A model generated the notes under the pieces. The model was not told the origin of the DNA and did no database searches. It saw nothing but the letters and a program-made list of their open reading frames with translations. A program made the position numbers and the translations under genes. This document shows, one piece after another, positions 56,203 to 59,086 of a stretch of DNA of 64,000 nt; the first letter of the stretch is position 1, and each line of letters begins with the position of its first letter. Origin of the DNA: Palleronia sp. THAF1 (GTDB lineage Bacteria; Pseudomonadota; Alphaproteobacteria; Rhodobacterales; Rhodobacteraceae); contig NZ_CP045420.1 in NCBI RefSeq assembly GCF_009363795.1, forward strand, positions 1,345,001 through 1,409,000. Reading direction: 5' to 3'.

Positions 56203-56976
56203 CTACCGCGCCGTCCAGCCGCCATCCACGCTGATGGTGGTGCCGGTGATCTGCGCCGCATCGTCCGAGCACAGGAACCTGGCAACGCCGCCCAGTTGCT
56301 CGACGGTGGCGAAGTCCTTGGAGGGCTGACGTTCCAGGATGACTTCCTTGATCGCCGTCTCACGGTCCATGTCGTATTTCTCCATCGTGTCGGGGATCTG
56401 GCTCTCGACCAGCGGCGTCATCACGTAACCCGGACAGATAGCGTTGGCGGTGATCGGGTCCTGCGCGGTTTCCAGTGCCACAACCTTGGTCATACCGACG
56501 ACGCCATGCTTGGCGGCGACGTAGGCCGACTTGTAGGGCGACGCGCGCAGGCCATGGGCCGAGGCGAGGTTGATGATCCGTCCCCATCCATTTTTGCGCA
56601 TCATCGGCACCGCGACGGCGCTGGTGTGGAAGGCCGAGGACAACATGATCGCGATGATCGCATCCCATTTGGCCGTCGGAAAATCCTCGATCGCGGCAAC
56701 GTGCTGGATACCCGCGTTGTTCATCAGAATGTCGCAGCGACCGGCCTTTTCGATCAGGGCGCGCGCCTCGTCGCCGTTCGACAGGTCGGCCTTGATGTAG
56801 CGCGCAGTGACTCCGTGTTCCTTGGCGATGTCTTCGGCAAGCTGGTGATCCTCGTCGCGGTCGGTGAACGAGTTCAGCACCACGTCCGCACCGGCCTTTG
56901 CCAGTTCATGTACGACCCCCAGCCCGATGCCAGAGTTCGATCCGGTGACGACGGCGGTTTTGCCTTTGAGTGACAT
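56203..56976 (-). CDS. bdhA: 3-hydroxybutyrate dehydrogenase
   Basis: Short-chain dehydrogenase of 257 residues oxidising 3-hydroxybutyrate to acetoacetate. TGSNSGIGLGVVHELAKAGADV is the NAD site, NNAGIQHVAAIEDFP and the Ser/Tyr/Lys set in NLASAHGLRASPYKSAYVAAKHG (seen in parts) form the active site. The insert ESQIPDTMEKYDMDRETAIKEVILERQPSKDF matches bacterial 3-hydroxybutyrate dehydrogenases closely. AAGGAG lies before the ATG at 56976; the frame upstream of it is not family-like. It starts the bdhA-patatin-DsbA-like unit. The candidate small RNA and its terminator lie just upstream. Confidence 0.92.
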   Translation of the reverse strand: MSLKGKTAVVTGSNSGIGLGVVHELAKAGADVVLNSFTDRDEDHQLAEDIAKEHGVTARYIKADLSNGDEARALIEKAGRCDILMNNAGIQHVAAIEDFPTAKWDAIIAIMLSSAFHTSAVAVPMMRKNGWGRIINLASAHGLRASPYKSAYVAAKHGVVGMTKVVALETAQDPITANAICPGYVMTPLVESQIPDTMEKYDMDRETAIKEVILERQPSKDFATVEQLGGVARFLCSDDAAQITGTTISVDGGWTAR

Positions 56977-57082: not shown

Positions 57083-57160
57083 GCAAAAAAAACGCCCGCA
57101 CGAGGCGGGCGTTAAGTCATTGAGGCAGGTTTCATACAGGCAAGAAACCTATCGAGCAGT
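57083..57160 (-). ncRNA. candidate small RNA, about 75-80 bases
   Basis: On the minus strand a predicted start near 57160 is followed by a first hairpin GGTTTC...GAAACC (57149-57128), a short single-stranded part and then a nine-pair stem, AACGCCCGC with GCGGGCGTT (57113-57105 and 57099-57091). The loop has five bases and eight T residues (57092-57085) follow. This is an excellent intrinsic terminator. No open frame of useful length lies inside. Upstream on the minus strand there is only the divergent start region of the solute-binding gene, so the terminator needs a short local transcript. The size, two-hairpin layout and U tail are those of an Hfq-type small RNA. Confidence 0.6.
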
Positions 57161-57166
57161 GCCCCT

Positions 57167-57194
57167 TACATACGCCGATTCGGGGAAATTGCAA
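57167..57194 (-). promoter_or_regulatory. promoter of the small-RNA candidate
   Basis: Minus strand: TTGCAA (57194-57189), 16-base spacer, TATGTA (57172-57167). The start would be seven bases on, near 57160. The -35 sequence is the same as that proposed for rpsB. Confidence 0.45.
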
Positions 57195-57203
57195 ATGATT
57201 AAG

Positions 57204-57233
57204 TTGAAAACCGGGGGGTTACCCCACTAACCT
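57204..57233 (+). promoter_or_regulatory. promoter of the solute-binding protein gene
   Basis: TTGAAA (57204-57209) and TAACCT (57228-57233) are 18 bases apart on the plus strand. The spacer contains GGGG-TTA-CCCC, a small inverted repeat that could be an operator. It is back to back with the small-RNA promoter. Confidence 0.4.
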
Positions 57234-57268: not shown

Positions 57269-59086
57269 ATGATGTTCTCTTCCAAAGCGAGCTTACGTAG
57301 CGTCGCATTCGCCTGCGCCATGACAGGCTTGCCCGGCGTGATTCTGGCTGAACCGATGCACGGCGTCGCCATGTTCGGCGACCCCGCGTTGGAGCCGGGG
57401 TTCAACGGCCTGCCGCACGCCAACCCCGATGCGCCACAGGGCGGCAGGATCGTGGCGGGCGAAGTCGGGTCGTTCGACAGTCTGAACCCACACATCCTGA
57501 AGGGTAACGCCCCGTGGATGCTACGCTTTCTGGCCTACGAGTCGCTGATGGGCCGCAACTACGACGAGCCGTTCTCACTATACGGATTGCTGGCCGAAAC
57601 CATCGAGGTGGCCGACGACGGCTCTTGGGTGGAGTTCCAGCTGCGTCCCGAAGCCCGCTTTTCCGACGGCTCTCCGGTCACGCCGGAGGATGTGTTGTGG
57701 TCGTACGAGACCCTTGGGACCGAAGGCCATCCACGCTACCGCGGGGCGTGGGCCAAGGTCGAATCCGCCGAGCAAGTGGGCGAGCGTGGCGTGCGTTTCA
57801 CCTTCAACGTGAACGACCGTGAGCTTGCGTTGATCATGGGAATGCGTCCGATCCTGAAAAAAGCGCAGTGGGATGGGCTGGATTTCGCCGATTCGAACCT
57901 TGACGAAATCCCGATTTCATCCGCGCCCTACACGGTGTCCGACTACGAGGCGGGCCGATTCGTCACCCTGACCCGCAACCCCGATTACTGGGGTGCGGAC
58001 GTGCCCTTCATGCAGGGGCAAGCGAACCTTGATGAAATCCGGATGGAGTTCTACGGCGACTCGACCGCCATGACAGAGGCGTTCAAGGGCGGCGCGCTGA
58101 CCACCATGCGCGAGACCAACGCCGAACGCTGGGCCACCCAGTACGACTTCCCGCGCGTCCAATCCGGCGAGGTGGTTAAGTCCGAGATCGAACACCAGCG
58201 CCCCTCTGGCATCGTCGGTCTGGCGATGAATACCCGCGAAGCGCCCTTTGACGACTGGCGTGTGCGAGAGGCGATGATCCAGGCGTTCAACTTCGAGTTT
58301 GCCAACCAAGTGCTGAACGGCGGCAAGCTGCCCCGGATCACCTCTTACTTCTCCAACTCCGAGCTTGGCATGTCGCACGACGCCGCGACGGGCCGCGTTG
58401 CGGAATTGCTGGAACCCTACGCGCAGGACCTGCTGCCCGGCACCATCGAAGGCTACGCGCTTCCCGTAAGCGACGGCACAGAGCGTAACCGCGGCAACGC
58501 CCGCCGCGCCGTGGGTCTGCTGGAAGAAGCGGGCTACACCATCGGCGATGGCGGCGTGTTGCGCGGTGAGGATGGCGCGGCACTGAAATTCGATATCCTT
58601 CTGCAGCAGGGATCGAACGAAAGCCAACAAGTCACGGACCTTTTCGTCGGTGCATTGGGTCGGCTTGGGATCACGCCCACGATCACGGTCGTGGACAGCG
58701 CGCAGTTTACCGAACGCACCAACCGCTTCGATTTCGACATGACGTGGTATCAACGCGGCCTGTCGCTGTCTCCCGGCAACGAACAGCTTCTGTATTGGGG
58801 CGCCGACGCCGCCGATCAGGAGGGCAGCCGCAACTGGATGGGTGTTAAATCCCCTGCCATCGACGGTCTGGTCCAGACGATGCTGTCGTCCGAAGACAAA
58901 GATGACTACGTCGCCGCCGTTCGCGCGCTGGACCGCGTGCTGACCGCCGGGCGCTACGTCATCCCGGTCTGGTACAACCCCGTCAGCTATATCGCCCATG
59001 ACGCCAGCCTGAAGTTCCCGGACCAACTGCCTGCCTACGGCGACTGGTTCACGTGGCAGCCCGATTTCTGGTGGTATGAAGAATGA
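57269..59086 (+). CDS. extracellular solute-binding protein, family 5 (peptide type)
   Basis: Periplasmic substrate receptor of the oligopeptide ABC class, 605 residues. A signal peptide covers about residues 1-27. Family segments are GGRIVAGEVGSFDSLNPHIL, YESLMGRNYDEPFSLYGLLAE, DGSPVTPEDVLWSYETLG and VSDYEAGRFVTLTRNPDYW. The GxxxRxWR-like closing region found in YejA/murein-peptide and nickel-type relatives is weak. It resembles the YejA-like subgroup. The permease and ATPase genes that should accompany it are not adjacent on the right side; the next gene is a small lipoprotein. ATG at 57269 and 57272 compete. Confidence 0.9.
   Translation: MMFSSKASLRSVAFACAMTGLPGVILAEPMHGVAMFGDPALEPGFNGLPHANPDAPQGGRIVAGEVGSFDSLNPHILKGNAPWMLRFLAYESLMGRNYDEPFSLYGLLAETIEVADDGSWVEFQLRPEARFSDGSPVTPEDVLWSYETLGTEGHPRYRGAWAKVESAEQVGERGVRFTFNVNDRELALIMGMRPILKKAQWDGLDFADSNLDEIPISSAPYTVSDYEAGRFVTLTRNPDYWGADVPFMQGQANLDEIRMEFYGDSTAMTEAFKGGALTTMRETNAERWATQYDFPRVQSGEVVKSEIEHQRPSGIVGLAMNTREAPFDDWRVREAMIQAFNFEFANQVLNGGKLPRITSYFSNSELGMSHDAATGRVAELLEPYAQDLLPGTIEGYALPVSDGTERNRGNARRAVGLLEEAGYTIGDGGVLRGEDGAALKFDILLQQGSNESQQVTDLFVGALGRLGITPTITVVDSAQFTERTNRFDFDMTWYQRGLSLSPGNEQLLYWGADAADQEGSRNWMGVKSPAIDGLVQTMLSSEDKDDYVAAVRALDRVLTAGRYVIPVWYNPVSYIAHDASLKFPDQLPAYGDWFTWQPDFWWYEE

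Follow-up and report, generated by a model that had tools for sequence, protein, structure and literature searches.

A small RNA (sRNA) gene conserved throughout the sampled Rhodobacteraceae was found on the minus strand of the window, the 64,000-nt stretch of the Palleronia sp. THAF1 genome analysed here. The RNA is probably a trans-acting regulator which is transcribed from its own promoter, pairs in two blocks with the 5' leader of the division and cell-wall (dcw, mraZ-ftsZ) operon and thereby regulates that operon. Its anatomy, its family-wide conservation and a conserved complementarity at one further genomic place are established by the sequences compared below.

Anatomy and promoter of the small RNA gene

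The features of the locus are collected in Table 1. The elements TTGCAA (57194-57189) and TATGTA (57172-57167) lie on the minus strand with a 16-nt spacer, as the initial annotation of this DNA had proposed. A simple sigma-70 scan gave this promoter no score; identical promoter positions are conserved family-wide. An alignment of 158 distinct regions upstream of homologues places TATAAA at -12 to -7 and TTGG at -35 to -32, and this conserved profile favours the A of ACTGC (57160) as the start of the sRNA, close to where it had been predicted. Further upstream, at -50 to -36, the profile contains TTTCAAACTTTTAGC, an imperfect dyad (CAAAC-N5-GCTTG, centre near -40) which is degenerate in the window's genome and in some of its relatives. 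It is possibly an UP element or an activator site.

Table 1. Features of the sRNA locus and adjoining genes, in window coordinates.
Feature	Position	Strand	Evidence
Small RNA, 76 nt, 5' ACUGCUCGAUAGGUUUCUUGCCUGUAUGAAACCUGCCUCAAUGACUUAACGCCCGCCUCGUGCGGGCGUUUUUUUU	57085..57160	-	Fold z -3.7; found in 36/36 and 196/196 genomes; covariance model R1 101 bits here
-10 element TATGTA (family consensus TATAAA at -12..-7)	57167..57172	-	158-region promoter profile
-35 element TTGCAA (family consensus CTTGGA, ~-36..-31; TTGG -35..-32)	57189..57194	-	Promoter profile
Upstream promoter element, consensus TTTCAAACTTTTAGC, ~-50..-36, degenerate here	57196..57210	-	0.5-1.7 bits/column
5' pairing segment CUGCUCG (sRNA nt 2-8), complement of dcw-leader CGAGCAG	57153..57159	-	Exact CGAGCAG in 33/48 leaders; also R. 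sphaeroides
Invariant hairpin 1, UAGGUUUC/GAAACCUG, 10-nt loop	57126..57151	-	7/8 pairs never vary
Main pairing segment (sRNA nt 18-39), UUGCCUGUAUGAAACCUGCCUC, antisense to dcw-leader island AGGTTTCATACAGGCA	57122..57143	-	Pairing and conservation analyses
Intrinsic terminator stem-loop; U tail 57092-57085	57091..57113	-	9-bp stem; both-side changes in 8/9 pairs
Divergent neighbour, SBP_bac_5 extracellular solute-binding protein	57269..59086	+	Pfam PF00496 E 7e-64; 148/156 testable loci
Same-strand downstream neighbour bdhA, 3-hydroxybutyrate dehydrogenase	56203..56976	-	TIGR01963 355 bits, cut-off 307

The predicted fold of the 76-nt RNA, comprising two hairpins, beats 200 of 200 dinucleotide shuffles. 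Both hairpins were recognised by the initial annotation, the upstream one as a GGTTTC/GAAACC stem and the downstream one as a nine-pair stem followed by eight T residues, and both are present as described. The U tail is 6-10 nt long among homologues, with at least six U in every one, and is compatible with Hfq binding. The free-standing promoter, the compensatory changes in the terminator, this U tail and a conservation far exceeding that of the neighbours together make a small RNA, possibly Hfq-dependent as first suggested, a well-supported reading of the locus. Two features of the general class of trans-acting base-pairing sRNAs are found here: the RNA is short and non-coding, with its own promoter and intrinsic terminator, as judged from sequence and conservation, and its complementarity to a distantly encoded RNA, the dcw leader, is conserved.

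Conservation across the Rhodobacteraceae

A 221-bp query recovered a homologue from all 36 Rhodobacteraceae genomes of a first sample and from none of 24 genomes belonging to other families of the class. With a 75-nt query, all 196 good-quality genomes drawn from the order, representing 87 genera, yielded a homologue, and a pattern scan matched at least 118 named contigs, including those of Paracoccus, Ruegeria, Roseobacter, Celeribacter, Sulfitobacter and Neomegalonema. This conservation (36/36 and 196/196 genomes) excludes a chance origin of the motifs. When 142 genomes of the class were searched with the covariance model, only the two included family genomes matched, at about 100 bits; the remaining genomes scored about 30 bits or less, and those inspected were without the core.

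Nucleotides 1-40 of the sRNA are essentially invariant, as only four of the 40 positions ever vary, each in one to three of 189 matched loci (a count which includes repeat fetches of one genome). The scan pattern fixed most of nt 14-39 and left nt 1-13 free; these 13 nucleotides, 5' of the fixed pattern, are invariant in all matches. The terminator stem behaves differently from the upstream stem. Among 45 sequences, eight of its nine pairs show changes on both sides and 94.6% of cells are paired; both-side changes over the whole structure amount to 63 cells, against 16 in shuffles. In hairpin 1, seven of the eight pairs are fixed and the other shows one U-A to U-G change, so that the invariance of this hairpin leaves its pairing without covariation support. 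The expectation, voiced in the initial annotation, that stems outside the terminator would be conserved thus holds for the invariant upstream stem, but compensatory changes are confined to the terminator.

Predicted pairing with the dcw leader

The invariant core of the sRNA is antisense to a conserved island, AGGTTTCATACAGGCA, in the 5' leader of the dcw operon. The island or a near match lies about 200 nt upstream of mraZ in relatives, and variable stretches flank it on either side (site 1). A search of 36 genomes for this 16-mer, allowing at most one mismatch, found it at the sRNA locus of each of the 22 family genomes; a second copy was present in 15 of these 22, always in the mraZ leader, and no occurrence elsewhere was found in the 36 genomes. 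The reversed 16-mer gave two matches in the same genomes, and by our estimate about 0.1 matches per genome are expected by chance at this stringency. Downstream (3') of site 1 stands a conserved leader hairpin with CGAGCAGACATCCCCCCAGGTG, whose CGAGCAG complements the 5' end of the sRNA; exact CGAGCAG follows site 1 in 33 of 48 leaders and is missing or altered in the other 15.

Pairing energies were calculated with duplexfold, which ignores internal structure. On this measure the mraZ leader reaches a median z of -3.9 in 51 genomes, 38 of which beat all 60 dinucleotide shuffles, versus a median of -0.25 (30 genomes) for the 5' region of the divergent peptide-type binding protein; the initial annotation had named the mRNA of that protein as a potential target, a suggestion which these values disfavour. 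The bdhA side gave a median z of 0.0 (30 genomes), and mraZ leaders from four other families gave -0.7 to +1.4 relative to single-base shuffles. The longest perfect complement between sRNA and leader has a median of 13 nt and extends up to 18 nt, compared to 6 (maximum 11) in shuffles. Site 1 is predicted to be unpaired at 0.56 versus an average of 0.42, and the ends and loop of the sRNA at 0.85-0.89.

The site in the window's own genome has diverged and retains 8+5+5 bp in addition to the 7-bp 5' block (-41.9 kcal/mol, z -3.3). A few lineages, e.g. G017, G030, G021 and L152, have a diverged or unrecognised site 1; their sRNA core is unchanged except for one base in G030. As the sRNA hardly varies, it and the leader show no clear compensatory change. 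The sRNA is also more conserved than the dcw leader alone requires, and other targets may therefore exist.

Two further observations concern these sequences. The leader hairpin loop GCGAGCAGACATCCCCCCAGGTG (dcw leaders L182-L201 and L239-L266), which contains a C-run, is nearly invariant in most genomes, exceeding the needs of a 7-bp pairing. A weaker match to the sRNA model (36.9 bits) occurs in the window's own genome at L044, minus strand, ~1501-1580 (G000:C1:2896014-2896076, minus). It reads CACTGCCTGTAGGTACGACCTACCTCAA... and then a terminator, lies directly after a same-strand ORF and near a ClpB-like gene, and was not found in 21 family relatives. Its segment TGCCTGTAGG pairs over 10 bp with the diverged dcw-leader site of this genome, CCTACAGGCA, and the match is possibly a paralogue with a matched target change.

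Relation to UpsM, StsR and other known RNAs

The dcw leader of R. sphaeroides yields an sRNA of 206 nt, UpsM (RSs0682), which RNase E shortens to 130 nt (PMC5089854, PMC6238624). UpsM arises through partial termination upstream of mraZ (PMC5089854), is the most abundant sRNA of the exponential phase and accounts for most of the Hfq-bound RNA (PMC8307010, PMC5089854); it is also subject to an unexplained effect of RNase III (PMC11354728). The RNase E cut has been mapped at genome position 694,720 (PMC6238624). One of our genomes, G088, appears to be R. sphaeroides 2.4.1 or a very close strain, given its seven contigs, an exact StsR probe sequence and an mraZ position which fits the published coordinates. 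In this genome the cut falls at UpsM nt 76/77, between the two sites for the present sRNA at nt 45-63 and 98-106. UpsM is a predicted partner or target of the present sRNA and not its homologue.

The sole sRNA linked to UpsM in the literature searched is StsR (formerly RSs0827), a 72-nt orphan sRNA with its own terminator. It binds both UpsM and the 5' leader of the dcw operon, stimulates cleavage by RNase E and reduces the amount of dcw mRNA (PMC8307010, PMC11354728). Identity with StsR, attractive by size and target, was rejected on locus and sequence: the StsR probe sequence (p-0827, from PMC3688512) maps to G088:C4:858073 and the present sRNA to G088:C4:1443996, so that one genome carries both as different genes. 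With at most one mismatch, the 20-nt probe sequence occurs in two of 394 family genomes, and the present sRNA in all those sampled. Like StsR, the present sRNA is predicted to pair with UpsM and the dcw leader, but at other positions; the predicted pairing of StsR lies close to the start of mraZ, and a similar GGGACAGTGAA stretch occurs at the beginning of UpsM. StsR is transcribed by RpoHI/RpoHII; the promoter consensus of the present sRNA is CTTGGA for the -35 and TATAAA for the -10 element. The present sRNA, though a different RNA, may thus act in the manner of StsR.

None of the Rfam families scores as high as its threshold. The best weak matches, Hrs13, suhB/mmgR and asX2, have mainly the terminator layout in common with the present RNA and were rejected. 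The alphaproteobacterial mmgR/suhB (RF00519) is of similar size and layout and aligns weakly over the full length, but membership was discounted at 23.5 bits versus a cut-off of 41, with two other loci in the same genome scoring equally or better. EcpR1 of Sinorhizobium meliloti, likewise an alphaproteobacterial sRNA, modulates cell-cycle progression (PMC4414408); it is set apart by its different order and target set. Interpolation along the chromosome suggests a number of about RSs1366 for the present RNA, and RSs1365-RSs1370 were not found in the literature searched. Orphans make up 38 of 79 R. sphaeroides sRNAs (PMC8625941), and the present RNA may already be among the unnamed ones.

Alternative explanations

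Several readings draw on the neighbouring genes, which were surveyed at 161 loci (a few genomes being counted twice). Some of these loci have neither the solute-binding protein (SBP) gene nor bdhA as a neighbour, so neither is required, and the sRNA does not overlap the transporter gene, which is divergent. A patatin-like phospholipase gene (PF01734, 55182-56363) directly follows bdhA on the same strand, an order kept in many relatives. The sRNA might be a transcription attenuator or riboswitch-like leader of bdhA, which lies on the same strand with its start codon about 110 nt beyond the terminator and is found downstream in 121 of 150 testable loci. Yet the RNA is unchanged in the 29 loci without bdhA, the spacer between them varies from about 40 to 305 nt, and the invariant part matches a target in trans. 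Persistence of the RNA where bdhA is absent makes this gene a poor explanation, and we hold the attenuator to be very improbable. Somewhat less remote, but still improbable, is regulation by the sRNA directed chiefly at other mRNAs recognised through short seeds, e.g. transporter mRNAs including that of the divergent SBP. This gene adjoins the sRNA in 148 of 156 loci, and its 5' region attains a pairing z of -2.8 in the window's own genome; across the 30 genomes compared above, however, that region pairs at chance level, and the RNA is unchanged where the SBP gene does not adjoin. A small coding RNA is barely credible. An internal reading frame (ATG AAA CCT GCC TCA ...) can be read directly as MKPASMT in the window's genome, but its third codon positions are invariant while its length varies (MKPAS*, MKPASIT* or a run-on into the terminator), its ATG is lost in one homologue, and it starts at the loop and stem of the hairpin.

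A further reading reverses the roles within the same RNA pair: UpsM may act as a sponge which titrates the sRNA away from other mRNA targets. The abundance of UpsM in the exponential phase and its dominance of Hfq-bound RNA (PMC8307010, PMC5089854) would suit such a role, as would an sRNA core more conserved than the leader site. Against this, no other site at one mismatch or fewer over 16 nt was found in 36 genomes, and the leader site lies within the dcw mRNA itself, so that binding must meet the mRNA too. We regard the sponge as unlikely.

Proposed mechanism and significance

In the favoured reading, direct regulation of the dcw operon, nt 18-39 of the sRNA would pair with the island AGGTTTCATACAGGCA of the leader, which in R. 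sphaeroides corresponds to UpsM nt 45-63, and nt 2-8 with CGAGCAG, there UpsM nt 98-106. Most likely, this pairing would remodel the leader and lead to cleavage by RNase E, or by RNase III within the long duplex; it may additionally, or instead, alter read-through at the UpsM terminator. Either route would adjust the amount of mraZ-ftsZ mRNA. We infer expression of the sRNA, its encounter with the leader inside the cell, the action of one of these nucleases and, as the net outcome, repression. A long perfect duplex between sRNA and leader would be a natural RNase III substrate, and we suggest the pairing as a possible reason for the unexplained effect of this enzyme on UpsM (PMC11354728).

The proposal points to a single gene for deletion and a single base-pairing block for exchange, which any laboratory strain of Rhodobacter or Ruegeria would allow. 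R. sphaeroides is the one species in which direct control of the dcw operon by an RNA, StsR, is documented (PMC8307010, PMC11354728). Being present family-wide, with an invariant core which matches the leader, the sRNA described here could serve throughout the family as a partner of the long dcw leader, itself unexplained. Since its conserved part is a near-perfect complement to the start of the division-gene mRNA, it probably helps to control cell division. Whether this ultraconserved RNA, carried by essentially every member of the family, is dedicated to the dcw leader/UpsM as its single partner, and represents an ancestral division control point of the Rhodobacteraceae that was later supplemented by the narrower circuit of StsR, is a proposition to which we would give even chances.
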